From positions 1 through 30,408 of the IMG/VR virus record IMGVR_UViG_3300030099_008287: 30,408 nucleotides of DNA; one strand, given 5' to 3'. Position numbers and translations under genes: made by a program. Below the pieces are notes generated by a model. It did no database searches. It saw only the letters and a program-made list of their open reading frames with translations, and was not told where the DNA came from. Below, in pieces: positions 4,517 through 22,699 of this stretch. The stretch's first letter is position 1. Each line of letters starts with the position of its first letter. Source of the stretch: a virus.

Positions 4517-7078
4517 CTATCTGATTTCAGACAGCTTCATATATATTTTTTCATCCATAATTTTTAAATTTCTTAAGAAAAGTATATCTTCTCCTTTTGT
4601 TCCATACAGTATTACTATGTTATTTTTCTTAGGCACTTTATTGCCTGCGTCTATGTATTTATCGTAATTTTGGCCTCTTCTGCTGTTTAGCAGCATGGCA
4701 TCATATCTCCCAACTTCATCTGCAACAGTTATCTTAATATATTTATTTCCGTTTCTACTCGTTCGTTTGAATGCATCTTCTACTACACCTATGAATCTGG
4801 CAGAATCGTTTTCAAACATTGAATTGTAATATATTGAGTCATTTAATGCTTCGGTTTGCTCTGGAAATACTTTGTTAAGTCTTGTGCTATGGGAATATCC
4901 AAGAAGCTGGGTTTCAAAATACCAATTAGCAAATTTTTCATATTTTTTATTCTTGTCATATATGGTCTTGTATGGGTCATACTTCTTTTTAAATGTATTA
5001 AATCTACTCTCCTTCATAAGGGGCTTACCGTCATCTCCGACAAGGTCTCCTTTTTTTGCGTCTGCGATTGCATTTAGTAGTTTATAGTTATACTTTTCTC
5101 CAAGCGTGATAAAGTTTCTTTTTTCTCTTTCTGTGAGAAGGTTAAAAGCTTGAGCCTCAAGAACCATAAGCGATCTATTGTCGCCTTTACTGCTCAATGC
5201 CCCAGCTTGAATTAACGAAGAGAGTACCCCAATATTTAGTCCAGCTTGTTTGGCTGCAAGAAATATATCATATTTAGTTGGGGTATCTGTGTCCCTAAAG
5301 TCTCTTAACGATTGTAGTGATTTTTCGCTGACACCCTTAATGCTATTTAATCCAAATCTTATATCTTCTCCCTCAATAGAGAATGTCATTTTAGATTTAG
5401 CAAGATCTGGAGACAAGAGCTTGATATTAAACCTGGGTAATTCTTGGCAAATTCTTGAAATTTCTTCTTGGGGGGAGGGCTCGTACTGAGTCATCTTCAA
5501 CAGAGAAACAAAAAACTGTTGAGGGTGGTTGAACTTAAGATATGTGGTCCATGCAGAAAGTGTCGCATATGCCACGGCGTGTGATTTATTAAAAGAATAG
5601 TTCGCGCTATCCTCTGCGACTCTCCACAATACTTCGCCAATCTCGGGGTCTAAATTATTTTTTTCGATTTTTTCTTCAATCTTTTGTTTCCATGCGGGCA
5701 TTTGATCAACTTTCTTTTTACCCACAATTCTTCTAAGTTGTTCAGATTCATCAAGAGTAAATCCTACCTTAACCGCCATCTGCATCAACTGTTCTTGATA
5801 AAGAGGAATTCCGCCAGTATAACCCAAAACTTCGTCATAAAATTCATGAACGCTTTGCGATTCTCCAGTTTCGGAATATTTTGCATAAGAATCCAAAAAG
5901 TCAAGCGCCCCAGGCCTTCCAATAGCAACTGCAGCGCTAAGTTCCTCCAAGTTCTTTGGCTTAATCTTTTTACAAACCTTATAGTTGGTATCAGACTCTA
6001 GCTGAAAAAGACCGTGAGGGCATTGCAGGGAGCTCAAAGGCTCGTATACAAAATCTTCTGAAAGGTCAACCCCATAGATATCTATGTCAAGCGATTTACA
6101 GACATCATAAATAACGCTTAAAGTTCTCAACCCCAAAATGTCAAACTTTACCATAAGTTCGGCAACCCAATTCATGTCATATCCAGTTACCAATGCGCCA
6201 TCGTTAGTGGTCTGGACTGGGCATATATCTGTCAATGTATCATGAGAAATAGCTATACCACTTGGATGAACGCCAGTGTTCTTGTTCAAGCCTTGAAGCT
6301 TTAGCGCGATATTAAAAACTTCTGGATTGCTGGCCGCCCAATCAGAAAACTTCTCACTTTCTTGTAATGCTTCTTCAAGGGGAATCACAACACCGAATCT
6401 TTTAGGAATCATATCGCTAACCTCATTCACCTCTTGCTCTGTATAATCGCCTACAATTTTTCCGCATTCCTTAATGCATAGCTTTCCGCTAAGAGTATTG
6501 AGGGTTAGTATTTTTGCTGTTCGGGCGGGGTGTTTTTTCTCAATATAACTAATAACTTCAGCCCTTCTTTCGTAGGCAATATCGTTATCTACGTCTGCAA
6601 GTAAGCTTCCATCCAGATATGTCACTCCGTCTTTGACGATCTTTTTTGCCCTGCTTTTTGAAACAAATCTTTCAAAGAAAAGGCTATATTTCACTGGATC
6701 TACATTAGTTACTCCAATCAAATACAATACTAGTGAGCCCGCCGCAGAACCGCGGCCTGGACCAGTCGGAATATCATTCTCATGGCAATAATTAAGAATA
6801 TCCCAGTTAAGCAAAATATAATCGATAAAACCCAAATCACGCAGAATATCAAGTTCTGACTTAGCTCTTTTATAATACTCATTTTTATTTTCTAATTGAT
6901 CTATATCTCTGTCCTTGACTCCCTTGTGGCAAAGTTTCCTAAGGAAATCATAATTTGATATATTATTTGATACACCCAGCTCCTTATAATACTTTTCATC
7001 AATCTCAATCTTAGGCAGGCGCACCCCAGCAGGTACGCAATTGTCGTAACTCTCAAAATCTTCTAAAAACTCACTCAT
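4517..7078 (-). CDS. dnaE: DNA polymerase III alpha core (family C), without PHP domain
   Basis: Replicative polymerase core. GPGRGSAAGS (residues 106-115) is the family C nucleotide-binding signature. Three acidic residues in ADVDND (162, 164, 166) replace the usual PDFDVDF and keep the first two catalytic aspartates. VKFDILGLRTLSVI supplies the third. LYQEQLMQMA, LRRIVGKKK and the NKSHAVAYA block complete the palm/fingers. The C-terminal ~100 residues (FIGVVEDAFKR, YIKITVADEVG) are an OB fold. The normal N-terminal PHP domain is absent and is encoded separately upstream. I chose the ATG at 7078 because it forms an ATGA overlap with the exonuclease stop; an in-frame ATG at 7093 is the alternative. 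The length of 853 residues compares with about 1,160 for bacterial DnaE. No sliding-clamp or clamp-loader gene is visible in the window. Confidence 0.93.
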   Translation of the reverse strand: MSEFLEDFESYDNCVPAGVRLPKIEIDEKYYKELGVSNNISNYDFLRKLCHKGVKDRDIDQLENKNEYYKRAKSELDILRDLGFIDYILLNWDILNYCHENDIPTGPGRGSAAGSLVLYLIGVTNVDPVKYSLFFERFVSKSRAKKIVKDGVTYLDGSLLADVDNDIAYERRAEVISYIEKKHPARTAKILTLNTLSGKLCIKECGKIVGDYTEQEVNEVSDMIPKRFGVVIPLEEALQESEKFSDWAASNPEVFNIALKLQGLNKNTGVHPSGIAISHDTLTDICPVQTTNDGALVTGYDMNWVAELMVKFDILGLRTLSVIYDVCKSLDIDIYGVDLSEDFVYEPLSSLQCPHGLFQLESDTNYKVCKKIKPKNLEELSAAVAIGRPGALDFLDSYAKYSETGESQSVHEFYDEVLGYTGGIPLYQEQLMQMAVKVGFTLDESEQLRRIVGKKKVDQMPAWKQKIEEKIEKNNLDPEIGEVLWRVAEDSANYSFNKSHAVAYATLSAWTTYLKFNHPQQFFVSLLKMTQYEPSPQEEISRICQELPRFNIKLLSPDLAKSKMTFSIEGEDIRFGLNSIKGVSEKSLQSLRDFRDTDTPTKYDIFLAAKQAGLNIGVLSSLIQAGALSSKGDNRSLMVLEAQAFNLLTEREKRNFITLGEKYNYKLLNAIADAKKGDLVGDDGKPLMKESRFNTFKKKYDPYKTIYDKNKKYEKFANWYFETQLLGYSHSTRLNKVFPEQTEALNDSIYYNSMFENDSARFIGVVEDAFKRTSRNGNKYIKITVADEVGRYDAMLLNSRRGQNYDKYIDAGNKVPKKNNIVILYGTKGEDILFLRNLKIMDEKIYMKLSEIR

Positions 7079-7722
7079 ATTTCTATATCCCATATCATTT
7101 TTTTAAATACCTCATAGTTTATGCTTATGTCGTAAAGAGCATCATGCAGCTTTGAAGAATCAAAGTTTATATCATAATCTTTACAGCACTGCATAAGGCT
7201 GCACTTTAGACCGCGTTCAATAAAATTACTAAGTCTATATTGCCAAGCTAAAAAATTATCTCCCTTATTTATTTTAATTTGTTTTTTTAATGCTTTGGCC
7301 ACACAAAGCGTGTCTACAAGTTTAAATAGGTAACTATGATCCGCCTTGTGCTTTTTATTCACAAGCTTTCTATGTAGGTTGTGCATATATACATCGAAAC
7401 CCAATAGATTGTGCCCGACCTTAATGTAATCGTCATTATACAAATAGTCCTCAAAGTGCTCCAATGCCTCCTTCGGGTCTGTGGCTCTTTTCTTATATTT
7501 AGATTGAGAAAATCCAGTAATTTTGGCAGCCTCTGGAGAAACATTTAAGTTGTCCCATTTTAGCCAGTAATCTTTCTGTTCTATAACTCTGTCTCCCTCG
7601 ACAGCCATAAATGCGAGCTGCCAAGGCTTATTATCTCCAGCTATCAAATTGAGATTGCAGGTTTCGTAATCAAAAATTAAGTATTTTTGTTTCTTTTTGA
7701 ATCTTAGTAATTTTTCCTTCAC
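7075..7722 (-). CDS. DEDDh 3'-5' exonuclease (DnaQ-like proofreading subunit)
   Basis: 215 residues with all exonuclease motifs: Exo I FDYET (D18, E20), Exo II VGHNLLGFD (D110) and Exo III HDALYD (H193, D198). It belongs to the DnaQ/epsilon group that removes mispaired 3' ends. The gene sits between the PHP-like gene and the polymerase core, overlapping both (GTGA upstream, ATGA downstream), so it is very likely the proofreading subunit of this polymerase. It starts with GTG: the stop of the preceding gene reads TCG TGA, and a strong Shine-Dalgarno AAGGAGG lies 7 bases before the GTG. The PHP-Exo-Pol gene order matches the domain order of Gram-positive PolC, in which the exonuclease is inserted in the PHP domain. 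Confidence 0.9.
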   Translation of the reverse strand: MKEKLLRFKKKQKYLIFDYETCNLNLIAGDNKPWQLAFMAVEGDRVIEQKDYWLKWDNLNVSPEAAKITGFSQSKYKKRATDPKEALEHFEDYLYNDDYIKVGHNLLGFDVYMHNLHRKLVNKKHKADHSYLFKLVDTLCVAKALKKQIKINKGDNFLAWQYRLSNFIERGLKCSLMQCCKDYDINFDSSKLHDALYDISINYEVFKKMIWDIEI

Positions 7723-8480
7723 GATTGAGCCTCCTTCCAGCTTTCAAAGCAAAACTCATTACTTCCAAAGTGATCAAGGTTTGGCTTTGACAGGGTTTTA
7801 TTTCCAAAAGTTCTTCCACAGATACATTTATAAGTTTGAAGTGCGGACACGTCACTCCTATTTTTATAGTAAATGCTCTTGGCGGGCTCAATTTTTGATT
7901 TTTCTGCAGAAGCAAATGAGCTAACCTTTGAGGCTATTAGCTTATCAAATGGCAATCCATTGTCTTCTATGAAAAATGTTGGTTTAGTAAAAGATAAATC
8001 TGGGGTGCAGTTACTAAAAGTCATCGTATTGTTAAATATAAAAGAATCATAAAATGGTATTGCTAGCTTCAAGCTGTCATCGCTCCACACTGATTTTAGG
8101 TATTTCGCATCGATACCATTTTTAAGCTCGGTAAAGGCTTTGCTGTAAATTTGGTTTAGTAATTTGCAGCCATTATTATTTTTAGAAAAAATTATTATTT
8201 TATGTCTCGAGCTTTTCTCTTCATCTTTTGGGTTGATTGTTGCATCTTCACACATATCAATGCGTAACCCAAAGATTATCTGCATGTTATGAGAATCTGC
8301 AATTTTCTTAGCCTGAAGAAAACCAGTTAAGGTATCTTCGACTAGAACAATTTTATCAAGATTGTTTTCTTGGGCAATCGTAAAAATGCTATCCGCGCTC
8401 CCCTCTTTATGTGTAATTGGATTATCAAGGGTAAGTATGCTTTTGCCGATTGAAAAATGTGATTTAAATAATGCTAACAT
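7719..8480 (-). CDS. Detached, degenerate PHP-like domain of DNA polymerase III
   Basis: 253 residues from the chosen start. The segment with ADSIFTIAQENNLDKIVLVE and then FLQAKKIADSHNMQIIFGLRI matches, in order, the 'A...G...+A+TDH....G...F...A...G+KPI+G' core of the DnaE/PolC PHP domain. The N-terminal metal-binding H-x-H of active PHP domains is not present (LFKSHFSIGKSIL instead), and TDH is replaced by VED, so metal-dependent activity is unlikely. The C-terminus carries C-x-C, a His and a further Cys (CICGRTF ... LDHFGSNEFC) that could form a small zinc site. The ATG at 8480 was chosen over the ATG at 8516 because the twelve codons between them coincide with a near-consensus promoter whose transcript should begin at 8480. 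It is the first gene of the polymerase operon and probably forms the N-terminal part of a split polymerase. Confidence 0.75.
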   Translation of the reverse strand: MLALFKSHFSIGKSILTLDNPITHKEGSADSIFTIAQENNLDKIVLVEDTLTGFLQAKKIADSHNMQIIFGLRIDMCEDATINPKDEEKSSRHKIIIFSKNNNGCKLLNQIYSKAFTELKNGIDAKYLKSVWSDDSLKLAIPFYDSFIFNNTMTFSNCTPDLSFTKPTFFIEDNGLPFDKLIASKVSSFASAEKSKIEPAKSIYYKNRSDVSALQTYKCICGRTFGNKTLSKPNLDHFGSNEFCFESWKEAQS

Positions 8481-8487
8481 GCCAATA

Positions 8488-8516
8488 ATCTTACCATAGG
8501 ATCGCTTGTTTGTCAA
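8488..8516 (-). promoter_or_regulatory. Sigma-70 promoter, extended -10, leaderless polymerase operon
   Basis: On the minus strand: TTGACA (8516-8511), a 17-base spacer, then TAAGAT (8493-8488) preceded by TGG, which is an extended -10. Seven bases separate the -10 from ATG at 8480, so transcription should start at or next to the A of that ATG. There is no Shine-Dalgarno. The element lies inside the longest version of the PHP-like reading frame, which argues that the longer start is wrong. Confidence 0.85.
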
Positions 8517-11395: not shown

Positions 11396-12409
11396 ATGGA
11401 AAATAAAACAGGAGAATTACTAACTAAAAATATTGCAGGAGTAAATAGAATCCTGCCTCACAAACATAAATTTGCTTGGGATTTGTTTTTGTCAAGCTGT
11501 GCAAACAACTGGATGCCTACAGAGATCTCAATGCAAAATGATATTAAACAATGGAAAAACGATGAAATTACAGAAGATGAAAAATTACTTGTTAAACGCT
11601 GCCTCGGATTTTTTGCTGGAAGCGAGTCTTTGGTTGGTAATAATCTTCTTTTATCTGCCTTTCGTTATATCACAGACGCTGAGTGCCGTCAGTACATCTT
11701 GCGTCAAGCATTTGAAGAGAGTCTTCACAATCTAACAGTAGTATATATATGTGACAGTTTAGACTTGGATATAGACGAGGTTTTCGCTGCTTACGAAAAC
11801 ATTCCAAGTATTAAGGCTAAAGATGATTTCCTAATGGAAATTACTAATGATATTAGCAGGCAAGATTTTAACGCTCACTCAAAAGAGGGAAAACAAGAAA
11901 TACTTAGAAACTTTTTGACTTATTGGATTGTGTGCGAAGGAACATTTTTCTTTAGTGGCTTTGCAATGCTTTTGGCTTTGGGGAGGCAAAACAAGCTTCA
12001 GGGAGTCTCTGATCAAATTAAGTATACCTTAAGAGATGAGAGTTCTCATATTTCATTTGGAGTATATTTAATTAATACTCTTATTGAGCAAAACCCATCC
12101 ATATGGACTAAAAAAATTCAGGATGAATTTGTAGAGCATATTAAAAAAGCTGTAGAGCTTGAGATAGCTTATGCTAAAGATGTATTACCAGTAGGTATAC
12201 TTGGCTTAAATGCAGATATGTTTGTTGACTATATGCATTATATTGGAAACAGAAGGCTTGAGTCTATAGGTTTAGATTATAGATTTCCAAGCGATCAAAA
12301 TCCATTTCCTTGGCTTGGAGAGGTTGTAGATGTACAAGCCATGGGTAACTTTTTCGAAAGAAGAGTTAGGGAGTATCAGCAAGGCGGTGCTCTTGAGGAC
12401 GATTTTTAA
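11396..12409 (+). CDS. nrdB: Ribonucleotide reductase beta subunit, tyrosyl-radical-less (class Ic-like)
   Basis: 337 residues. The ferritin-like dimetal site is complete: E77 (FFAGSES), E108 and H111 (EESLH), E181 (CEGTFFF), E215 and H218 (RDESSH). The spacings equal those of E. coli NrdB (31 residues between ligands 1 and 2; 34 between E204 and E238 equivalents). Two differences stand out. The first ligand is Glu where most class Ia proteins have Asp, and the residue seven after E108, the tyrosyl-radical position (Y122 in E. coli), is Val115. Glu at the first ligand plus a non-Tyr radical site is the hallmark of the Chlamydia-type (class Ic) enzymes that store the oxidising equivalent in a Mn/Fe cluster. 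The C-terminus GALEDDF is the usual NrdA-docking tail. It is transcribed from its own leaderless-type promoter. Confidence 0.95.
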   Translation: MENKTGELLTKNIAGVNRILPHKHKFAWDLFLSSCANNWMPTEISMQNDIKQWKNDEITEDEKLLVKRCLGFFAGSESLVGNNLLLSAFRYITDAECRQYILRQAFEESLHNLTVVYICDSLDLDIDEVFAAYENIPSIKAKDDFLMEITNDISRQDFNAHSKEGKQEILRNFLTYWIVCEGTFFFSGFAMLLALGRQNKLQGVSDQIKYTLRDESSHISFGVYLINTLIEQNPSIWTKKIQDEFVEHIKKAVELEIAYAKDVLPVGILGLNADMFVDYMHYIGNRRLESIGLDYRFPSDQNPFPWLGEVVDVQAMGNFFERRVREYQQGGALEDDF

Positions 12410-12430: not shown

Positions 12431-12607
12431 TCACTCTTTAGCTTTCTTGGCGACATGTTCTCCAACATTTCCCGCAGCATAAAGACCAAAAATCCACTTA
12501 ATGAAATCGGCCCAATCTTTAAATTCGGCCATTCCACCTAATAGTGCTGCAGTTGCAGATACAAAGCAAATGCTTGCACATAAGAGTTTTCTACTTTTTA
12601 AATTCAA
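12431..12607 (-). CDS. 58-residue membrane peptide, holin-like candidate (TTG start)
   Basis: This short frame has a TTG start at 12607 that overlaps the stop of the DUF1501 gene (TTGA) and a strong Shine-Dalgarno, AAAGGAG, 8 bases upstream, inside the end of that gene. The peptide has a basic N-terminus (LNLKSRK), a hydrophobic segment (LLCASICFVSATAALLGG), a short amphipathic stretch (MAEFKDWADFIK) and a second hydrophobic segment (WIFGLYAAGNVG), then a charged tail (EHVAKKAKE). The WIFGLYAAGNVGEH block resembles small phage membrane proteins often labelled holin-like, but that is recalled, not searched. It is the last gene of its operon, and only 21 bases separate its stop from the convergent nrdB stop. 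No terminator was seen in that gap. Confidence 0.7.
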   Translation of the reverse strand: MNLKSRKLLCASICFVSATAALLGGMAEFKDWADFIKWIFGLYAAGNVGEHVAKKAKE

Positions 12608-13875
12608 CTTAAAATCTCCTTTATAATTTGTCCATCATGGGCAACCTTAAATGGTCTTCCTGATGGAGAATATTCTGTTTTATTAATGTCTAGTCCCATA
12701 GCATGTGCTATAGTTGCATTTAAGTCAACCATACCAACGCCACCTTCTTCTACATAGTGGGCTCGTTCATCTGATTGTCCATGCACATAACCTTCCTTGA
12801 TTCCTCCTCCAGCGAGAAGAGCGCTAAATGCAGATGGGTGATGATCTCTTCCTATTCTTCCAGCTTTAACTTCTGGACTTCTCCCAAATTCGCTACATAC
12901 AACGACCATTGTCTCTGATAGAAGGCCTCTTAAATCAAGATCATGTAGTAGAGTTGATAGAGCTTTGTCTAAAACAGCAGCCCTATTTTCTAGGTTTCCA
13001 AATACATCATTATGCATATCCCAGCCGCCGTACTGGACTTTAACAAATCTGACTCCAGTTTCTACTAATCTCCTTGCAAGAAGACAGCCTTGGCCAAAAT
13101 TATCATCCCCGTAAGCATCTCTAGTTTCTTGATTTTCTTTTGTGAGATCAAATGCATCTAGATCTTTGCTTTTCATTAACTTAATTGCATCATCATACAG
13201 GTCTGTATAAGCTCTCACTCCCTTTTGCGGAAAGTCTTTTAAGAAATCAGAATTGAAAGATTTTGCTATATCTAATCTTTCGTTAAAAAGCTCTTGACCT
13301 ACATAACCTGCTTTTTTAACATTTTGAATTCCTGCGTTTGGATTCCCTATTGGAAGTGGGCCGTATTTTTTTTCAAGATAACCAGCGCCAAGAATATCGC
13401 TACCGCCGTTTATTTGAACATTTGCTGGGAGTGTAGGGTTGAGTTGTCCTCTTTTTTTTGTTATCCAGCTTCCTAGGGTTGGGTGAATAATAGTACCTCT
13501 TTTTTGATAACTGGTATGCAATAGATAAGTTGCCTGTTGATGGGCTCCTTGATTTGTGTTTAAAGATCTAACCAAAGATGCCTTGTGCATTTGCTTTGCT
13601 GTTTCTGGCAGCCAGTGGCCCAATTGAATCCCATCGGCAGATGTGTTGATTGCTTTGGTCTCTCCCATAACTTCTTTATTCTCAGGCTTTGGATCAAAGG
13701 TATCGACATGAGTCATTCCTCCAGCCATATATAAAAATATAACGCTTCTTGCTGTAGGTATTTTTGCTGGAGCGATAGACCCAAATAGGCTTGCTTGCGA
13801 TCCTAGTATAGCTCCAACCCCAAGGCAGGATTTAGCCACTTGTTCTGCAAATTTTCTTCTGCTTATCTCTTGCAT
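12604..13875 (-). CDS. DUF1501 protein with twin-arginine signal
   Basis: 423 residues, a full-length DUF1501 protein (alkaline phosphatase/sulfatase-like fold, abundant in Planctomycetes and Verrucomicrobia; biochemical role unknown). A twin-arginine signal is clear at the N-terminus: S-R-R-K-F at residues 5-9, then a mild hydrophobic stretch (LGVGAILGSQASLFGSIAPA), so it should be folded in the cytoplasm and exported by Tat. Family signatures include FLYMAGGMTHVDTFDPKP near the N-terminus, VQYGGWDMHNDV in the middle, and CSEFGRSPEVKAGRIGRDHH near the C-terminus. The gene begins 2 bases after the phage core-like gene and is followed by the overlapping 58-residue peptide. In bacteria DUF1501 genes are typically paired with DUF1549/DUF1553 genes; here the partner lies one gene upstream. 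Codon use and composition match the neighbours, so the acquisition is not recent. Confidence 0.92.
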   Translation of the reverse strand: MQEISRRKFAEQVAKSCLGVGAILGSQASLFGSIAPAKIPTARSVIFLYMAGGMTHVDTFDPKPENKEVMGETKAINTSADGIQLGHWLPETAKQMHKASLVRSLNTNQGAHQQATYLLHTSYQKRGTIIHPTLGSWITKKRGQLNPTLPANVQINGGSDILGAGYLEKKYGPLPIGNPNAGIQNVKKAGYVGQELFNERLDIAKSFNSDFLKDFPQKGVRAYTDLYDDAIKLMKSKDLDAFDLTKENQETRDAYGDDNFGQGCLLARRLVETGVRFVKVQYGGWDMHNDVFGNLENRAAVLDKALSTLLHDLDLRGLLSETMVVVCSEFGRSPEVKAGRIGRDHHPSAFSALLAGGGIKEGYVHGQSDERAHYVEEGGVGMVDLNATIAHAMGLDINKTEYSPSGRPFKVAHDGQIIKEILS

Positions 13876-13877
13876 AT

Positions 13878-15659
13878 TTATTTTTTATCTTTGTTATGGT
13901 AAGACTTGTATCCAGCTTTGTTTTTCATTTTTAAGACCTCATTGTGCTTTTTCATAAAAGTCTCATGATCTGGGCCTGCCATATAAAGTGTTTCTCCGTC
14001 TTCTGTTTTGTGAGAGTGAAATCCTTTTAGTCCCAATTTTTTAGCATCTTTCAAGGCTTCTTCTTTGGTCTTAAAATAGTGCTTCATAATGTCTGGGGCA
14101 GCTTGAGACTTTTTATATCGGGCCTTACTCTTTTCTTTCATAGCCTTTTCTTTCATAACTTCTTTATGACGCTTCATAAAGGTGGCATGATCTGGCCCAG
14201 CCATATATAAAGTTCTTCCATCTTCGGTTTTGTGACTGTGAATACCTTTTAAGCCAAGCTTCTTGGCATCTTTCATTGCCTCCTCCTTAGTCTTAAAATA
14301 GTGTTTCATAACGTCTGGTGCGCCTTGCGCCCTTCTGATAGCTTCCTGAGAAGGTCTATCTTTATCTCCAGGTTTTGCGGGTCTATAGTTTTTGCCCATC
14401 CTTTTTTTCTTTTTGCGAATATTTTCCCAGAGACTAGAATAAGACATCTTCTTTTTCTTCTTTTTCTTTTTGTCTTTATAATGACGACCTTCTGCTCGCT
14501 TTTTTAGAATAGCGTCTCTTAATGGTTTTGGAAGTTTTTTCTGCTTTTCGGTGAGGCCATTCTCATCTTCCTCATCTATATCAGCTTTCATTTTTTTATA
14601 CTGCATTGCACATGCGGCATATGTTTTCTCATCGTCCATACCTGCAGTGTTAATTAAATCTTTATCGTGGCTCATACAGTGCCCCATAAAAATTTTTTCC
14701 ATATTTTCGTCAATCACCGACATTTTGTAGGCTTCCGACTCTTCTTCAAAGATATTTTCAAAGTCAACATCAGATTCATCAGATAGGTCATATATTTCTA
14801 TATCATTATTTGCTTCTGCGAAATCTTCTTCTGAAAAATCAATAAATTCACTAGCTACTGAAGATGACCTAGAAATGTCTTGATCTGCTTTTCTGTAAGA
14901 TTCTTTAACCTTTCCTCCTCGCTTCATCTTTAAGAACATATTTACTCTGGCCATGGCCCAGCCACCTCTTGTCATTCCAGGCCTATGCGACGATGAAAAT
15001 GCTCCTGCGCCCCTACGATATACTTTTTTAAGTTGACCCAAGGTTACTTTTTTACTTGGATGTTTTTCGTTATGGGCTTTAACTTTGGCTTTTAGAGAAT
15101 TTATAACTTTTTCTGAAAAAGTAATCTTTGCGCCTTTTTTGGCGGCGCTTCCAGGCTTGTTTTTAGACGAGCCCTTTTTTCTCTCTGAGGGTTTGGCGGG
15201 TGTTTGTGCTGCGCTTTTGGGCCCAGGTCTTTTTGCCTCAGACTCATCCATGTACTGAAGGAGTGCATCCTCAAGTTCAAGCTCCGAGCCCTTCGTGATA
15301 TTGGTTACGCTTTTTTTAGACCACATCTTGCAGCTCCAATAACGAGCTTTTGTTTTTGGTCCAGGATTTTCACAATTGTGCCTAGCTCTAAAGTTTTTTC
15401 TGCGAGCGGGGTCGTCTCTCTTAATCTCCATATTTGGATCGCCAAAGTTGACCTTTACAACATTGCCCTTTGCATTCTTTACATAAACAGAAAATTTCTT
15501 TGGGCCTCCTGGGGTCCTAAATGGCTTATTTAGCTTTTTGCCCTTATTTTTTTCTGACGCCCAAGCTTCTTCAGAAATTGGATCTTCTGACCCCTCTTCT
15601 TCAAGAAGTCTTGACTTAATTTTATCTGTGAGGTTAATTTTAAATTCTTGATTTTTCAT
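13878..15659 (-). CDS. Large basic phage core/head-like multi-module protein
   Basis: 593 residues, Lys-rich, built from several small modules. Residues 54-113 (KKFSVYVKNAKGNVVKVNFG, then RHNCENPGP and KARYWSCKMW) and residues 178-245 (VTLGQLKKVYRRGAGAFSSS, HRPGMTRGGWAMARVNMFLK) are blocks I associate with phage and other viral proteins. An acidic stretch follows (~262-310), then a Phe-x3-Cys ... Cys-x3-Tyr module (F324-Y354) like that of the protein at 1544-2062. The KQKKLPKPLRDAILKKR motif comes next, then a run of nine lysines. Two tandem copies of a ~60-residue unit at 445-504 and 519-578 end the protein. No signal peptide is present. The likely role is a scaffold, core or DNA-associated virion protein, but this is inference. 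It lies between two exported-protein genes, PSD1 and DUF1501, with gaps of 14 and 2 bases. Confidence 0.8.
   Translation of the reverse strand: MKNQEFKINLTDKIKSRLLEEEGSEDPISEEAWASEKNKGKKLNKPFRTPGGPKKFSVYVKNAKGNVVKVNFGDPNMEIKRDDPARRKNFRARHNCENPGPKTKARYWSCKMWSKKSVTNITKGSELELEDALLQYMDESEAKRPGPKSAAQTPAKPSERKKGSSKNKPGSAAKKGAKITFSEKVINSLKAKVKAHNEKHPSKKVTLGQLKKVYRRGAGAFSSSHRPGMTRGGWAMARVNMFLKMKRGGKVKESYRKADQDISRSSSVASEFIDFSEEDFAEANNDIEIYDLSDESDVDFENIFEEESEAYKMSVIDENMEKIFMGHCMSHDKDLINTAGMDDEKTYAACAMQYKKMKADIDEEDENGLTEKQKKLPKPLRDAILKKRAEGRHYKDKKKKKKKKMSYSSLWENIRKKKKRMGKNYRPAKPGDKDRPSQEAIRRAQGAPDVMKHYFKTKEEAMKDAKKLGLKGIHSHKTEDGRTLYMAGPDHATFMKRHKEVMKEKAMKEKSKARYKKSQAAPDIMKHYFKTKEEALKDAKKLGLKGFHSHKTEDGETLYMAGPDHETFMKKHNEVLKMKNKAGYKSYHNKDKK
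13926..14327 (-). repeat. Two diverged tandem copies of a 60-codon unit, period 222 bases
   Basis: Copies at 14327-14148 and 14105-13926 encode near-identical protein units beginning APD(V/I)MKHYFKTKEEA and ending AGPDH-x-TFMK-x-H-x-EV. They are separated by a short basic linker; the period is 74 codons. The core HSHKTEDG-x-TLYMAGPDH is almost unchanged while codons differ, so the protein is under selection as a repeat. Confidence 0.85.
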
Positions 15660-15673
15660 AATTATCTATACAC

Positions 15674-17719
15674 CTATTTTATAAATATAAACTCATGAGA
15701 ATTCAATAAAATCCAAGATACATGCTTAAATCCATCTTTTTTATCAATCATCCCCTTAAGGCTATTTATTTCTTTGATTGTGGGCTTTCTTCCTAATATA
15801 GAAAGGAATGCGGTTTCTATTTGTTTTGTTTTTATGCTTTCATTCTGAATTTGATTGATAAAGTCTGCACCTTTTTTATTTAGAATATTTGTCTCAACAA
15901 AACCATTTAAAAGCGTTAATACTTGCGGTGCATTAGGCTCTCTGTTACTGTTATCTATTTGCTCTCTATCGCTGCCCCCAAATTGCCTAATTAAGTGTCC
16001 GCTGGGTGCGGGTGATTGTAGGTAGCTGCTTCTCACTAAATACCTATCTGGAAATTTTTTCATTTTTTCGGCTTGATATTCATCTGCACCAATAACCCTT
16101 AGAAAATTTCTATCTCCAGGACTTTTTTCAGAAAGATGTTTAAAGTCTGCATATATTTCTTCAGCGGTCATTTCATTATATCTTTTATATATCGCGCTAT
16201 AGTCTTGCTGATTATGCAGGTACAATCTTGTTGAATCGTCAATTTCATTATATACCAATGTAACCAAAGAGTCCCATAGTTGTTCGCCTGTCATCCTGCG
16301 GAGTAGTGGGCCAGCAAAAGAATACTCTTCTAAGGTTTTGTAGTCTTGTTTTAGGCTCGATCTTTGAAATAATTTAGTATTCATCAAGATTCTTTTATAT
16401 TCTCTTAGATCATATCCAACACTAACCATAATGCGCTCTAGGAACTTCATTAGTTCTGGGTTGCTAGCAACAGTATCATCCATCATTGTATCTATTGGTT
16501 CAATTAATCCAACCCCAAACACATGCTTCCAAACCCTGTTTGCAATCATCGTGGTAAACCTAGGATTATCTTTGCTTGTTATCCAATCGGCAAGAACAAC
16601 CCTACTCTTAGGTTTTGGGCTTTTAGGATCAAAAACGGGTTTGGGGGTAAATATTGCCTTTGCAAAAACTATATCCCCTGGATCTCCATCATCTTCGGCA
16701 TAATCTTTTGGTAGTTTAATTTTTCCAGTTCCTTCATTCTCTAGTCCAAAAAAAGTTGAGTCTCTAACTTGATTTCTCCAGTTGTTGAATGTTCCAGAAT
16801 TTTCATCGCCCTCTTCTCTGATAATTCTGCTTAGTTTACCTATTTTTTTGTTCGCCTCATCTATCCTCACGCTGCCTATTCCAGAGGTGAATGCGGTCAT
16901 TTCATAAAACTCTTTTTGAGTCCATCTATCAAAAGGATGGTCGTGGCACATTGCGCATTGCAGTCTTGTGCCAAGAAATATTCTGAGAGTATGAGAAAGG
17001 TTGTCTTCTTGCATTCCCCTGTCTCTAACATAGTAGCTAACCTCTGGCCCATTTTCGTATAGCTTTCCAGTGCTTGCTATAAGCTCTCTAACTATTTGAT
17101 CATAAGGCTTTTTCTCTCTCAATGACTCTCTCAACCACTTTCTGTATACTGCTCCAACGTTTATATTTGTGCCTGCTGGGCGATCCTTTACCCTGAGCAT
17201 GTCCGACCACCAGTTGATTTGATGATTAACATAGCCTTCAGAGTTTAGAAGTTTTTGTATCAGCTTATCTTTTTTATTTTGATCTCTATCATCAATAAAT
17301 TCTGAAAGTTCGGAATGAGATGGAATTCTACCAATCAATAAAAGATATACTCTCCTTGCGTATGTATATTGATCTAAATCTTTAGTTTTGCTAATTTTTT
17401 TTGATATAAGCTGTTTTTCAATTAACTTGTCTATATAACCCGAATAACTATTAAGGGTTCTTTTATCTATTGGAACTTTTACTTCAGGGATGGTGCTATA
17501 TCTGTCCTCTGAGTGATATAATTCTATTTGTTTGCGAGAATCTATGGTCAGGGCAGAGGTAAGAACTCTAAACTGCTGGAGATCTTCAGATCGCTGCAAT
17601 ACAAGGTGCGTCTCATTGGCCTCTAGTATTTGTGCATCGATAACCTTGCCGTTATTGAAGTAGATTTTATCCGCCTTGCATATAAGGGGAAGAAATAAAA
17701 GTAGTATTAGTTTTTTCAT
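15674..17719 (-). CDS. DUF1549/DUF1553 (PSD1-type) secreted protein with CxxCH
   Basis: 681 residues. A Sec signal peptide covers about 1-16 (KKLILLLFLPLICKA). Residues 18-65 form a small beta domain (KIYFNNGKVIDAQILEANET, SH3/Sm-like). DUF1549 covers about 90-300, with the family hallmark FLGTRLQCAMCHDHPFDRWT, including a CxxCH heme-type motif at 255-259. DUF1553 covers about 375-665 (LADWITSKDNPRFTTMIANR, VWKHVFGVGLIEP). This family is typical of Planctomycetes and Verrucomicrobia, is usually secreted, and its function is unknown; no separate cytochrome domain is present at the N-terminus, unlike many bacterial relatives. The start overlaps the stop of the VWA gene (ATGA). Whether CxxCH actually binds heme cannot be told from sequence; export through Sec would at least place it where c-type cytochrome maturation occurs. 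Confidence 0.92.
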   Translation of the reverse strand: MKKLILLLFLPLICKADKIYFNNGKVIDAQILEANETHLVLQRSEDLQQFRVLTSALTIDSRKQIELYHSEDRYSTIPEVKVPIDKRTLNSYSGYIDKLIEKQLISKKISKTKDLDQYTYARRVYLLLIGRIPSHSELSEFIDDRDQNKKDKLIQKLLNSEGYVNHQINWWSDMLRVKDRPAGTNINVGAVYRKWLRESLREKKPYDQIVRELIASTGKLYENGPEVSYYVRDRGMQEDNLSHTLRIFLGTRLQCAMCHDHPFDRWTQKEFYEMTAFTSGIGSVRIDEANKKIGKLSRIIREEGDENSGTFNNWRNQVRDSTFFGLENEGTGKIKLPKDYAEDDGDPGDIVFAKAIFTPKPVFDPKSPKPKSRVVLADWITSKDNPRFTTMIANRVWKHVFGVGLIEPIDTMMDDTVASNPELMKFLERIMVSVGYDLREYKRILMNTKLFQRSSLKQDYKTLEEYSFAGPLLRRMTGEQLWDSLVTLVYNEIDDSTRLYLHNQQDYSAIYKRYNEMTAEEIYADFKHLSEKSPGDRNFLRVIGADEYQAEKMKKFPDRYLVRSSYLQSPAPSGHLIRQFGGSDREQIDNSNREPNAPQVLTLLNGFVETNILNKKGADFINQIQNESIKTKQIETAFLSILGRKPTIKEINSLKGMIDKKDGFKHVSWILLNSHEFIFIK

Positions 17720-19437
17720 TTATCATTATATTTGCCATCTTTTAAACCACCACCATATATATCTAAATCTAACCCAATCCTTCTTGATGCCTCGAATATT
17801 AAATTTAGATAATACTTGGGGTCTCCAGAATCTTTTGCGTGATATTCATCACTAAAAACAATTCCGTCTTTATTTTTAATATGATTGTTGTTGTTGTCTC
17901 TGTAATATTTTTTTAGATTATTTGACTCTAAATAGCCCTTGCCTTGAAATGCATTACCTACAAATTCTTTGAATGATTTAGCAAATGTTTTGCCTCTATC
18001 AACCTGAAACATAACTCCTCTGTAAACTCCATTATATCCATTAAGTGATGATTTGAGCTTGCCAATATCATCAATGTAATGATCTTCAGGCTTCTTGTTG
18101 AAGTTAGGTAGATGATAGGCTGGTTGAGCTTCGTCTTGAAATGCTATAGCTAGTACATTGTCCTTTTTCGCCGCTTCTGCAAAGAATTTTAAAGTTCTTT
18201 CTCCAGAGCTAGATACAATCGTGACTCGATTATTATACAAATTTTCATCATTATTATAATAAGGCAGAAGAGCGTCTTTTAGAATGGTTTCTTTCATTAT
18301 ATCTAGCTGCTTTCTTGTGTTTAGTATACTTCCGCTGCCATCTACATGCATCATAATATGCAATGCTCCATTTTTTGGAAGGTGGTCATAATTGTAATGC
18401 CCTCTACCAATACCTGCGCCTCCGCCACCCATACCATTACCTGGGCCCATACCAAGCTTTTGAGTGATATAACCTTGTGTTAAACCAGCGGCTCCACCAG
18501 CCCCAGCGCCACCAAGCAAACCTCCAACTCCAGCCGAGTAGGCAGAATCTTTTGGGTATCCTTCCATTGGTTGACTTCCGTCACCAATACCTCCTAATGT
18601 GGGAACAGATTGGCCGTCTAGCATCGCTTCGCCAATTCCTGCGCCAATTCCTGCGCCTGCGCCACCTCCTGCACCAAGGGCGGGAGATCCAACTCCTGCT
18701 CCTATACCTTTAGTTGGAAAATTATAAGCGTATAATTGTCCTCCTTTTCCCACTTCGTAGCCTCCGTCAGAAGATATGCCAAAGTCATTTACTTCTCCTA
18801 GTTCGGAATTGTTTTGGTTAGTTACTGGAGACAGGTTTCCTAAATCCAAATCATCTTTAGTATCTAGGCCGATTTTTTCTATTTTATCTTTCTGGTCAAA
18901 ATGTTCAAATGTTTCAACCTCGTTCAGTTCTTTTATTCTTCTATCTAAAAGTCCATGATCAACACTCTTATCCACCCGATTTCCGATACTATACTCATGA
19001 TCCACATCATTATCCAAACGGCCCCTATGTAGCCCAATACCGACATCACCGCCATGAGCAAAGCCGCCATCATGTTCAAAAAATCTTTCATTTTCAATTA
19101 CTGTAGTTCCAATCTGCCTATCTGCATCAATATGGTAGGTATTATCTAAAACGGTAATATTCCTATCTATATCATCTCTTATTATTCTTCCTTGAAGTCT
19201 ATCTATATACACAGATTCTTGAGTTCGAAATACTGAGGGTGGATTGTAAACAATTGGTTGTCTAGCCTCAATTGTATTGTTTTGCTCTACCTTAACGAGT
19301 TCATGATCAGCCTCGTGGAGTAACTCATCTTTTTGATTAATAGGTATTAGCGCAATAAAAGCTATTGCGAGTAAATACCCAGCAATCAGATTCCCGAGAG
19401 ACAGTCTTTTTTTATTAATTGCATTCACAGTTTTCAC
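17716..19437 (-). CDS. Membrane-anchored Gly-rich protein with C-terminal VWA domain
   Basis: 573 residues from GTG at 19437, chosen because AAGGG lies 8 bases upstream; an in-frame GTG at 19467 has no Shine-Dalgarno. A single membrane segment at about 12-33 (LSLGNLIAGYLLAIAFIALI) with basic residues before it anchors the protein with most of it outside the cytoplasm. A charged Asp/His/Arg-rich region follows (~40-215), then a Gly/Ala-rich flexible region at ~243-345 (SPALGAGGGAGAGIGAGIGE). The C-terminal ~215 residues look like a von Willebrand A domain: a hydrophobic strand HIMMHVDGSGS contains a complete D-x-S-x-S metal-site motif (D366, S368, S370). VWA domains usually mediate metal-dependent protein contacts. 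The gene overlaps the Cys-rich lipoprotein upstream and the PSD1 gene downstream (ATGA), so it is part of the envelope operon. The VWA call is by motif and order, not by search. Confidence 0.8.
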   Translation of the reverse strand: MKTVNAINKKRLSLGNLIAGYLLAIAFIALIPINQKDELLHEADHELVKVEQNNTIEARQPIVYNPPSVFRTQESVYIDRLQGRIIRDDIDRNITVLDNTYHIDADRQIGTTVIENERFFEHDGGFAHGGDVGIGLHRGRLDNDVDHEYSIGNRVDKSVDHGLLDRRIKELNEVETFEHFDQKDKIEKIGLDTKDDLDLGNLSPVTNQNNSELGEVNDFGISSDGGYEVGKGGQLYAYNFPTKGIGAGVGSPALGAGGGAGAGIGAGIGEAMLDGQSVPTLGGIGDGSQPMEGYPKDSAYSAGVGGLLGGAGAGGAAGLTQGYITQKLGMGPGNGMGGGGAGIGRGHYNYDHLPKNGALHIMMHVDGSGSILNTRKQLDIMKETILKDALLPYYNNDENLYNNRVTIVSSSGERTLKFFAEAAKKDNVLAIAFQDEAQPAYHLPNFNKKPEDHYIDDIGKLKSSLNGYNGVYRGVMFQVDRGKTFAKSFKEFVGNAFQGKGYLESNNLKKYYRDNNNNHIKNKDGIVFSDEYHAKDSGDPKYYLNLIFEASRRIGLDLDIYGGGLKDGKYNDK

Positions 19438-19531
19438 AGTCTTTACCCTTGCATTCTTTGCAGTCACATGGGTTTTTGACTATACTGCATGAGGAAATGA
19501 TAAATGCTATAAGTATTGAAATATATTTCAT
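19415..19531 (-). CDS. 38-residue Cys-rich lipoprotein
   Basis: A very short frame. It has a lipoprotein-type signal MKYISILIAFIISSC with lipobox I-S-S-C (lipidated Cys15), then SIVKNP and a dense cysteine cluster CDCKECKGKDCENCEC (seven Cys in 16 residues), ending in Asn. If processed, the mature product would be a lipid-anchored peptide of about 24 residues, metal-binding or disulfide-rich. It is the first gene behind the promoter at 19573-19601, with an expected leader of roughly 35 bases and no good Shine-Dalgarno. Its 3' part overlaps the start of the VWA gene by 23 bases in another frame, suggesting coupling. I know no family for it; the combination of promoter, lipobox and cysteine pattern makes a chance frame unlikely, though translation is unproven. 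Confidence 0.6.
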   Translation of the reverse strand: MKYISILIAFIISSCSIVKNPCDCKECKGKDCENCECN

Positions 19532-19572: not shown

Positions 19573-19601
19573 ATAATACACTATATTGAGGTCGATGTCA
19601 A
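19573..19601 (-). promoter_or_regulatory. Sigma-70 promoter of the DUF1501/PSD1/VWA operon
   Basis: On the minus strand: TTGACA (19601-19596), a 17-base spacer, then TATTAT (19578-19573); no TGn. The expected start is near 19566, giving a leader of about 35 bases before ATG at 19531. An inverted repeat, TTGAGG (19586-19591) and CCTCAA (19611-19616), flanks the -35 and could be an operator. This promoter differs from the other four in having a normal leader. Confidence 0.78.
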
Positions 19602-19633: not shown

Positions 19634-19891
19634 ATGTATAGATATTTGTGTCTTTTGCTGCTTTGCGGTTGTGTTCCTAAACATAGCCCGCAACCTAGTG
19701 ACACAAAATTCAAGGATGAGCATCGAAATTGGCTAGAAACATATAGAGCAGAGGTAAAGATTGCAATTAAAAATGAAGATGAGGAGGGGTATTACTTTTT
19801 TATGCAAGAAATAGTTAAAGAGCACTATAAGCAACAGACGGGTCAGGACATGGATCCAAACCCGTCTTTAAGATTTATAAATAATCCCTAA
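19634..19891 (+). CDS. Small lipoprotein
   Basis: 85 residues. The N-terminus MYRYLCLLLLCGC is a lipoprotein signal with lipobox L-C-G-C (lipidated Cys13). The mature part starts with a Pro/Ser linker (VPKHSPQPSD) and continues as one long charged helix (RNWLETYRAEVKIAIKNEDE). It has no cysteine beyond the signal. It is the only plus-strand gene between 12409 and the right end of the window and lies divergent from the Cys-rich lipoprotein operon. Its last 4 bases overlap the end of the convergent 79-residue membrane protein. An outer-membrane spanin or an exclusion lipoprotein would have this general look, but no specific family was recognised. No good promoter or Shine-Dalgarno was found for it. 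Confidence 0.72.
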   Translation: MYRYLCLLLLCGCVPKHSPQPSDTKFKDEHRNWLETYRAEVKIAIKNEDEEGYYFFMQEIVKEHYKQQTGQDMDPNPSLRFINNP

Positions 19892-20716: not shown

Positions 20717-21022
20717 TCACCTATAGTGTAGAATAAATCGTGCCAGTTTTCTAAAAGGCTTAATTATATAGTGTTTTACAAACCCCTGTATTGGTTGTAG
20801 GTTTAATTTTTTTCTTAATTTATTTTCTAGATTTGTGAGCGGGCAGTCAATTACCCTAGACAAACTTATTACTACTATAAAGGTCACAATTGGCAAATAT
20901 ATATACCAGTTATCTAAATCGTTCGCAGCTTTAAAAATTAAGAAGGGGAGGGCAATAATGTTACCCACCGCTATAGCACAGTGAAACAATACAATTAAAG
21001 TTAGAAAAATTTTATCTTTCAT
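20717..21022 (-). CDS. Small membrane protein resembling DUF2784
   Basis: 101 residues with two or three hydrophobic segments (about 5-32 KIFLTLIVLFHCAIAVGNII and 40-58 WYIYLPIVTFIVVISLS) followed by DCPLTNLENKLRKKL and GFVKHYIIKPF. The CPLT-x-LE-x-LR signature after the last membrane segment, and a downstream GF-x2-HY, match my memory of the DUF2784 family of bacterial membrane proteins, whose function is unknown. It starts in the stop of the acyl-CoA dehydrogenase gene (ATGA overlap), so the two are translated together. A lipid-linked role with its upstream partner is possible but not supported by anything beyond that coupling. Confidence 0.72.
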   Translation of the reverse strand: MKDKIFLTLIVLFHCAIAVGNIIALPFLIFKAANDLDNWYIYLPIVTFIVVISLSRVIDCPLTNLENKLRKKLNLQPIQGFVKHYIIKPFRKLARFILHYR

Positions 21023-22557
21023 TTCAGTTGTTCAAGATGCCTATGCTTTTCCCTAAATATCTCTTGCCCTAAATCAAAGTCTTTACAGTCTCTATTGTTT
21101 TTAATTGAATCGAAATGGCTTTTAATTTTCTTTTTTGAGTCATAGAATATCGATTCTAAAATTTTATTTGATTGATCGTCCCCGTCTTTACTGCACCTAT
21201 AGACACAAGTATATAAAACAAATAGTTGTATTCTTATTTGCGATATTCTATAAAGCAGTAATTGCTTATCTTTTACGCTCTCCCTGTATCTGATTTTTGA
21301 AAATAATATGCACCTTGATAGCTTGCGGTTTATTTTGTTGATAAATTTTATCTTTGATTTTAAATTCTTATCACTTGTATTAATTTTATCAAACTTTTTA
21401 AAACCGAATTTTTTCCCAAAACCCTCTTTCGCTAAAAGCATATTCAAAACTTCATTTGATCCCTCTAGAATTAGATTAATCCTAAGGTCTCTGAATAGCC
21501 TCTCAGCAGAAGAGGCCTTTTCTCCTCTAAGTTTTAGCGACTTGGATTTTTCGTATCCTCTTCCCCCTCTAATTTGCACAGCTTGATTAACAATTTCCCA
21601 GCATGATTCGGTGCAGTAAATTTTCGTCATGGTAGATTCTTCTTTAATCTCTGCATCTTTTCTATCCATTATAAGGGAGCTATATAAAACCATAGATTCC
21701 ATCGCAAAGGTTTTTCTCGCCATGTCAGTAATTTTATCTGATATTAATTCGTGCCCACCGATATATTTACTCCATTGACATCTTCTTGATCCCCATTCCC
21801 TAGATTCTTTTAAGAGTTGTTTTGCAGCACCGACGCAAATAGCAGACAGAAAAATCCTTGACTCGGAGAGAACCTCTAAGGCCATTTTAATACCACATGT
21901 TTCTGGAGAGATAATATTTTCTTTCGGAATTTTGACATTATCAAATTTTAAAACTGCGCTTTCCGAGCCCCTTAAGCCAGAAAACTCACATTTACTTCTT
22001 TTTGAAACCCCCGAATAATCAGATCTAACTATTATTGCCTTAAATTTATCTTCTGGGCATTTTGCTATAACTACAATCAGGTCTGCCCTTAATGAGTTTG
22101 TGCTCCATATTTTTTGTCCATTTAGAACTAGATTGCCTGCAGAGTCTTCAGATATACTACAACTTATATTTTTGGGATTTGACCCAGCATGCCATTCTGT
22201 TAATGCGAGAGCGCTCGAGGAACCATAGGAAAACCTTGGTAGGTATTTTTGTTTTTGATCTTGGTTTCCATATTTTAATAAAAAAGCTGGAAGCCCAATC
22301 GATTGACTCGCTAAAAGCACTGCAGATATACTTCCACATTTTGCACCACACATCATTAGGGCTCTTGAAAATTGTAGAGAAGATAGCCCTTTTCCGCCGT
22401 ACTCATTTGGAATTTTAATACAAAAAGCTCCAACATCAATTAAAGCTTTTCTTAAGGATGGTCCTATATATTTCTTTTCATCTATAAAGTCTGGGTCGAC
22501 ATTATGATTTAGTAAAGAGCCAAATTCTTCAAGGAACTTTTCTTGATCGTTTATCAT
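21019..22557 (-). CDS. Acyl-CoA dehydrogenase, long/very-long-chain type
   Basis: 512 residues. It is an FAD flavoenzyme of the acyl-CoA dehydrogenase family, catalysing alpha-beta dehydrogenation of a fatty acyl-CoA. An N-terminal helical domain (DVGAFCIKIPNEYGGKGLSS), a middle beta domain with ALTEWHAGSNP and LNGQKIWSTNS, and a C-terminal helical domain (QIRGGRGYEK, ERLFRDLRINLILEGSNEVL) are all present. The Glu in LILEGSNEV occupies the position of the catalytic base in VLCAD-like members. A Lys-rich extension of ~115 residues follows, as in VLCAD/ACAD9, which use it for membrane or dimer contacts. I chose ATG at 22557; the frame also allows TTG at 22566. A beta-oxidation-type enzyme is unusual in a phage and its substrate cannot be read from sequence. 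It is coupled to the DUF2784-like gene. Confidence 0.93.
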   Translation of the reverse strand: MINDQEKFLEEFGSLLNHNVDPDFIDEKKYIGPSLRKALIDVGAFCIKIPNEYGGKGLSSLQFSRALMMCGAKCGSISAVLLASQSIGLPAFLLKYGNQDQKQKYLPRFSYGSSSALALTEWHAGSNPKNISCSISEDSAGNLVLNGQKIWSTNSLRADLIVVIAKCPEDKFKAIIVRSDYSGVSKRSKCEFSGLRGSESAVLKFDNVKIPKENIISPETCGIKMALEVLSESRIFLSAICVGAAKQLLKESREWGSRRCQWSKYIGGHELISDKITDMARKTFAMESMVLYSSLIMDRKDAEIKEESTMTKIYCTESCWEIVNQAVQIRGGRGYEKSKSLKLRGEKASSAERLFRDLRINLILEGSNEVLNMLLAKEGFGKKFGFKKFDKINTSDKNLKSKIKFINKINRKLSRCILFSKIRYRESVKDKQLLLYRISQIRIQLFVLYTCVYRCSKDGDDQSNKILESIFYDSKKKIKSHFDSIKNNRDCKDFDLGQEIFREKHRHLEQLK

Positions 22558-22699
22558 AAATTCCAACCCAACATAAAAATGCTACAAAAAAACTAACTAA
22601 ACTAAACCATTCTCCAGCAAGGGCATATACAAAAGCTATGCAAATATTAAGGTAAGCCAAAAAAAGACAAAATTTACCTCTGGCATTTAAGTTCTTCAA
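22529..22699 (-). CDS. Possible 56-residue two-helix membrane peptide
   Basis: A short frame spans the gap between the dehydratase and acyl-CoA dehydrogenase genes and overlaps both. From TTG at 22699 it encodes a basic start (KNLNARGK), two hydrophobic segments (FCLFLAYLNICIAFVYALAG and WFSLVSFFVAFLCWVGI) and a basic end YDKRSRKVP, a sensible positive-inside pattern for a hairpin membrane protein. It explains an otherwise empty 100-base gap in a region where genes touch. Against it: no Shine-Dalgarno near the TTG, and the start is uncertain. It is probable but unproven. Confidence 0.4.
   Translation of the reverse strand: MKNLNARGKFCLFLAYLNICIAFVYALAGEWFSLVSFFVAFLCWVGIYDKRSRKVP

Follow-up and report, generated by a model that had tools for sequence, protein, structure and literature searches.

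We analyzed positions 1-30,408 of the IMG/VR virus record IMGVR_UViG_3300030099_008287 (the window, 30,408 nt), a genuine tailed-phage fragment that carries a six-gene operon on its minus strand at 12431-19531. Two of its genes, encoding a PSCyt2-PSD1 (DUF1549/DUF1553) protein and a DUF1501 protein, are candidate functional copies of a periplasmic pair from Opitutia, often accompanied by a host VWA-like gene. We propose, with about an even chance of being right, that the pair plays an envelope redox or hydrolase role in infection resembling that of an auxiliary metabolic gene. Re-reading the open reading frames from the sequence confirmed the six minus-strand genes of a first-pass annotation, including its 4-base overlaps and its gaps of 14 and 2 bases; the overlap it gave as 23 bases between a 38-aa lipoprotein gene and the VWA-like gene measures 14 or 23 bases, according to which GTG is taken as the start of the latter. 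That annotation had also treated all six genes as one complete exported module. The constant unit proved to be PSD1 plus DUF1501 alone, and the genes for a 593-aa protein, a 58-aa membrane peptide and the 38-aa lipoprotein vary among phages.

The expected recurrence of the gene set in other phage contigs was found for the pair. In scans of IMG/VR, close copies (type A) turned up in 14 contigs, DUF1501 and PSCyt2 each occurring exactly once per contig, and a profile scan gave 23 further contigs (type B); the viral contigs are all metagenomic and mostly fragments, and these prevalence figures depend on how the contigs were found. Type B phages have a backbone like that of the window, with DNA polymerase III (PolIII) alpha at 75-80% in most and NrdB at ~90%. 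Their pair is only ~40% (PSD1) and 53% (DUF1501) identical, often in the same slot next to NrdAB or the PHP-exonuclease-PolIII genes. PSD1 lies upstream of DUF1501 on the same strand for 32 of 40 distinct phage DUF1501 genes, within 120 bases in 20 of these, and a broader scan found DUF1501 encoded in 93 viral stretches. Contigs L351-L369 represent another phage lineage, whose members, where checked, have T4-like baseplate-wedge and clamp-loader genes; the pair is therefore present in at least two phage lineages. In most phages it sits among nucleotide-metabolism and replication genes. Some of the contigs exceed 200 kb, and in G008, a 205-kb relative of the window, the terminase large subunit gene is ~10 kb from the pair on the same record. 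Bacterial contamination miscalled as viral was ruled out, as terminase, PolIII, NrdAB, baseplate-wedge and clamp-loader genes share contigs with the pair. A chimaera at 12.4 or 19.6 kb was likewise ruled out: contig L002 (IMGVR_UViG_3300002242_003264) has the same junctions with NrdB, TM79 and Lp85. PHROGs and INPHARED gave no match to PSCyt2-PSD1 or DUF1501, and a tblastn search of INPHARED found no isolated phage with the pair.

The nearest cellular relatives belong to Planctomycetota and, with full-length coverage, to marine Opitutia (Verrucomicrobiota). In the trees, which are quick searches with some long branches, type B nests within the Opitutia clade at several places (starred branches) and type A is sister to it. 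A single ancient acquisition was rejected by the approximately unbiased (AU) test of a single viral origin (p = 2e-4 for DUF1501, 2e-29 for PSD1), and type B alone does not form one clade either (p = 5e-4 and 1e-46, respectively). In a larger DUF1501 tree of 72 viral and 65 cellular sequences, built with a simpler model owing to its size, the starred branches force at least eight label changes. Phage L219 and Opitutia ARS76 have DUF1501 proteins that are 93% identical. The nesting, and a chromosomal setting that is conserved for the host genes, are read as transfer from host to phage. Phages captured the genes several times, chiefly from a single host orthologue.

All type A and B phage DUF1501 proteins group with that single orthologue, although the family is large in the hosts: PSCyt2 genes number 11-41 in each of seven Opitutia genomes, and in three sampled genomes nearly every sufficiently covered PSCyt2 copy is followed by DUF1501. 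The host neighbourhood of the preferred orthologue comprises a multihaem tetratricopeptide-repeat cytochrome, PSD1, DUF1501, a PSCyt1 gene with leucine-rich repeats (LRR), a class-V aminotransferase (SufS-like), a sulfatase and a glyoxalase-like gene; phages took PSD1 and DUF1501, not the neighbouring PSCyt1. Phage DUF1501 types C and D stem from different branches, and the examples seen lack an adjoining PSCyt2 of their own. One type D gene is a second DUF1501 copy, located after VWA in L145 (12937-14268). The phage hosts appear to be marine Opitutia, which narrows the earlier assignment to the Planctomycetes-Verrucomicrobia-Chlamydiae (PVC) superphylum.

Purifying selection, proposed earlier as a check on the reading frames, was strong: the ratio of nonsynonymous to synonymous change (dN/dS) against the nearest relative was 0.055 for DUF1501, 0.054 for PSD1 and 0.12 for VWA. 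The pair is both host-derived and under purifying selection in phages, as would be expected of an auxiliary metabolic gene. Synonymous divergence (pS) from L002 was 0.08-0.48 for the window genes at 12431-12607, 11396-12409, 12604-13875, 15674-17719 and 21019-22566, compared with 0.72-0.82 for backbone genes and 0.72 for the 593-aa gene lying in between. The low values may point to phages having exchanged these genes recently, or to constraint on codons.

The DUF1501 gene (12604-13875, minus strand) encodes 423 aa and matches Pfam PF07394 over its full length (8.9e-109; 364.6 bits against a cut-off of 27, model positions 1-390). It begins with an RRKF signal of the twin-arginine translocation (Tat) type, and an RRxF-type signal is present in 67 of 72 phage DUF1501 proteins, suggesting that the protein is exported folded. 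Its AlphaFold2 model is confident (pLDDT 90.5) and resembles PafA (PDB: 5too) with a Z score of 20.7 over 278 residues and nucleotide pyrophosphatases/phosphodiesterases (NPPs) at ~20, with many solved members of the alkaline phosphatase superfamily at 18-21, so that an alkaline-phosphatase-superfamily fold is predicted. Among 66 homologues, D58/T59, H112, D286, H288, E329, R332, R343 and H345 show little or no variation, and H112, D286, H288, E329 and H345 are invariant in all 72 phage proteins. DUF1501 is accordingly best described as a probable superfamily member by fold with a non-canonical, strongly conserved putative metal-type site, the site being judged from sequence rather than from geometry or superposition.

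The PSCyt2-PSD1 gene (15674-17719, minus strand) encodes 681 aa with a Sec signal, an SHD1-like N-terminal barrel, a CxxCH motif and a C-terminal PSD1 domain. PSCyt2 (PF07583) matches at 7.6e-44 (150.6 bits) and PSD1 (PF07587) at 1e-33 (117.3 bits). The haem-c type motif reads CAMCHDHPFD, and CxxCH is present in 45 of 45 phage copies, making the protein a putative c-type haem protein by this motif. In its AlphaFold2 model (pLDDT 87.6) the N-terminus resembles SHD1 (PDB: 2hbp, Z 4.8 over 55 residues). Over the whole protein nothing in the PDB matched above Z 6; the partial matches, to this N-terminus and to a phycobilisome-linker-like C-terminal piece, may reflect common arrangements. With the Sec signal here and the Tat motif in DUF1501, the claim that these phage genes are envelope-directed holds at the level of the signals. 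In three contigs the gene immediately upstream of PSD1 is a predicted phage tmRNA gene (L005:9539-9936, L006:9585-9951 and L007:9504-9941), which may mark an insertion site; the tag of the L006 gene looks atypical.

The VWA-like gene (17716-~19428, minus strand) encodes one N-terminal transmembrane anchor, a Gly-rich stalk and a C-terminal domain with VDGSGS, a DxSxS motif of the metal-ion-dependent adhesion site (MIDAS) type that is kept in nine of nine aligned homologues; Pfam VWA models matched none of the nine. Homologues in Opitutia genomes reach E 5e-186, and the phage gene is host-derived by this similarity. In phage types A, B and C it neighbours either the pair or DUF1501, as a frequent but not constant partner. 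In the hosts VWA has its own operon with ExbB/MotA-like, two ExbD-like, GYF and HtrA-like genes, named by sequence reading rather than by profile. The host VWA ends in a CPxK...FCCxxC module that resembles YHS/TRASH metal-binding domains, an assignment made by motif; host PSD1 carries one or two insertions of this module. The module is missing from the phage VWA proteins seen and from PSD1 of types A and B2; type B1 PSD1 retains one copy. That two separately encoded host proteins share a domain and were brought into one operon by phages is a good hint that VWA and PSD1 act together.

These features can be assembled into a working scheme. The pair would be transcribed early or in mid infection, together with genes for nucleotide metabolism and replication; PSD1 would be exported by Sec and receive haem at CxxCH, and DUF1501 would be exported folded by Tat. 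Because the two genes are strictly adjacent in phages and hosts, we infer that PSD1 and DUF1501 would act as periplasmic partners, DUF1501 contributing an alkaline-phosphatase-type fold with its non-canonical metal-type site; a coupling to the VWA protein in the membrane is conceivable. The catalytic-type residues are all kept though the accessory domain is trimmed, which argues that the phage forms are active enzymes and not decoys. The phage pair could then keep up, boost or retune an envelope redox or hydrolase activity of the host.

Several observations weigh against this scheme. Position 108 of DUF1501, where the superfamily has its nucleophile, is variable among the 66 homologues (N, S, Q, E or T), and the strand-1 Asp position (50) is Met or Leu, both positions being assigned by motif spacing and not by superposition; since the canonical nucleophile and first Asp are absent, hydrolase activity is not assured. 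The distribution is patchy as well. Of 20 large records from the window's clade, DUF1501 is present in 10 and PSCyt2 in five, those five having been found through PSD1; thus about half of these relatives lack DUF1501, and all 15 not found via PSD1 lack PSCyt2. The pair was therefore rejected as a core feature of the clade; it is accessory, and its absence from many large related records means that it is dispensable or host-dependent. Moreover, DUF1501 occurs alone in some phages, and a type D copy in L379 (4403-5629) lies between the terminase gene and a likely portal gene, a position unlike that of a metabolic gene.

Among other explanations, we consider superinfection exclusion or receptor remodelling rather unlikely. 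Here the exported proteins would alter the cell surface or compete with a host receptor complex, blocking later phages at adsorption or injection. TonB/Tol-type energised machines are exploited by phages, and it fits this idea that all products are envelope-directed, that VWA derives from a host ExbB/ExbD-type operon, that the accessory domain is dropped in phage copies and that several alleles have been swapped in one slot. However, the perfect conservation of catalytic-type residues and the low dN/dS are unlike a typical arms-race decoy, and a host family of 11-41 paralogues would make an odd receptor; nothing specific was found in favour of exclusion, which the first-pass annotation had raised. 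Less probable still, and to be regarded as quite doubtful, is a dominant-negative takeover, in which trimmed PSD1 and VWA, both lacking YHS, would assemble with proteins of the host so that a metal-responsive envelope complex is uncoupled or switched off. The YHS-like module is common to host VWA and host PSD1 and was lost in parallel from type A and B2 PSD1 and from all phage VWA seen, as such a takeover would predict, but type B1 PSD1 retains one copy, the active-site residues are fully conserved, and the trimming, which is judged against cellular donors, is not claimed for the pair of the T4-like phages.

That the proteins ride on the particle as virion-associated enzymes for attachment or entry, another role suggested earlier, is very unlikely. 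The L379 copy beside the terminase and likely portal genes is what such a role would lead one to expect; in window-type phages, by contrast, the pair is away from head genes and beside NrdAB and PolIII, and in most phages it keeps to nucleotide-metabolism and replication genes. Tat and Sec signals, in addition, would direct the products to the periplasm and not to assembling virions. We give hardly any credence to passive cargo, that is, to host genes acquired by chance and non-functional in the phage: the accessory distribution agrees with it, but strong purifying selection (dN/dS ~0.05) largely refutes it, and one orthologue was captured several times and has persisted for long within type A.

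The proposed envelope enzyme role can be set beside known systems. In PVC bacteria, DUF1501 and DUF1549/DUF1553 domains are reported as paired and expanded, with no explanation given (PMC5615132, PMC4452313, PMC2754498), with 41 PSCyt2-PSD1/DUF1501-type copies in Rhodopirellula baltica (PMC2754498), and DUF1501 with DUF1800 adjoins chitin synthases in Proteobacteria (PMC5122149). The phage pair shares with the PVC pairs (PF07583, PF07587, PF07394) its domains, the order PSD1 then DUF1501 and the CxxCH and RR motifs, whereas the phage copies are shorter, lack the adjoining PSCyt1-LRR gene, retain the YHS-like insert only in reduced form or not at all, and frequently share an operon with VWA. 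In the open literature that we read, we found no tested function in work mentioning DUF1501 or DUF1549, and no report of phage-borne PSCyt2-PSD1/DUF1501 pairs. The auxiliary metabolic genes of marine phages, of which psbA of cyanophages is an example, are likewise host-derived, captured several times, under purifying selection and placed with nucleotide-metabolism genes; the phage pair differs in that its products are envelope-exported and its activity is not assigned. Likewise, DUF1501 is alike in predicted fold to the alkaline phosphatase superfamily (PafA, NPPs, sulfatases) and differs in its unconserved nucleophile position and the replacement of the first Asp by Met or Leu. A phage-encoded DUF1501 also exists as a single BFVD entry (A0A6J5M742) from an uncultured Caudovirales, for which the papers found propose no function. 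P8625, the first lytic phage of Verrucomicrobia, infects marine members of subdivision 4 and is described as having a ~47 nm capsid and a long tail (PMC4642752); the phages studied here, which likewise appear to infect marine Verrucomicrobia, have contigs of up to more than 200 kb.

If the pair does serve infection as an envelope enzyme system, its repeated choice by phages would show which orthologue matters in infection, with VWA as partner and the YHS-like insert dispensable. It would offer a minimal system of 681 and 423 aa to express and assay for abundant families without assigned function, and its genes could mark a large group of marine Opitutia phages. A bolder and improbable version is that phages of Verrucomicrobiota assembled a trimmed host envelope machine, made of PSD1, DUF1501 and the VWA of an ExbB/ExbD-type complex, which retunes a metal-responsive envelope process. 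If true, such a machine would be a phage envelope effector of a new class, and it would hint directly that the three families work together in the host.

The other genes of the operon are less constant. The 593-aa gene (13878-15659, minus strand) is phage-specific, with matches to phrog_7595 (of unknown function), DUF5824 and two DUF3721; none of these backs its earlier label as a phage core protein. It lies between the pair here, and before, between or after PSD1 and DUF1501 in other phages. TM58, the 58-aa membrane peptide (12431-12607, minus strand), is optional; it occurs in at least five phages, of which L006 has it kilobases from the pair and L016 on the opposite strand. Lp38 (19415-19531, minus strand), the accessory 38-aa lipoprotein with the Cys-rich tail CDCKECKGKDCENCECN, is confined to the window and L002. 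Opposite the operon, on the plus strand at 19634-19891, is a short lipoprotein-like gene, Lp85; other phages have weak homologues of it close to the module.

Upstream of the operon, a sigma-70-like promoter, TTGACA-N17-TATTAT (19601-19573, minus strand), is predicted with 11 of 12 consensus matches. It is the top-scoring site of the 12-30 kb region, and none of 200 shuffles of the 160-bp leader attained its score; promoter-like sites overall are not above shuffles (61 vs 56.8). Sites with 11 of 12 matches also precede the pair in L004, L020, L021 and L133, and most other phages lack them. With near-consensus sites in only five of 21 leaders, we did not take them as proof of timing. A GTGTA-containing motif recurs before the pair, at 19573-19584 in the window and in the leaders of L003, L004, L006, L133 and L134; its form WWAGTGTAWWAT has one match in the window against 0.12 expected and is possibly a phage promoter signature.

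Around the operon the window encodes ClpA/C-like, PolIII alpha with separate exonuclease and PHP genes, NrdA/NrdB, Hsp20, ClpP, primase, DnaB and RecA-like proteins, the names beyond Pfam matches being assigned by reading the sequences, and this gene set identifies the setting as a large tailed phage. The first 435 bases match the end of a 379-aa gene in the head cluster of G008, which also has a 5,409-aa open reading frame (L025:162-16391). PolIII alpha is split across the clade, with PHP, exonuclease and polymerase as separate genes of one operon (window 4517-8516), and has 342 relatives in IMG/VR. In the T4-like contigs L361 and L368, an intein- or intron-like homing element interrupts the clamp-loader gene that adjoins the pair. 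Next to a DUF2784 membrane protein gene (20717-21022), the window has a complete acyl-CoA dehydrogenase gene (21019-22566); homologues of this uncommon phage cargo occur in L002, L008 and L287 (41-92%).

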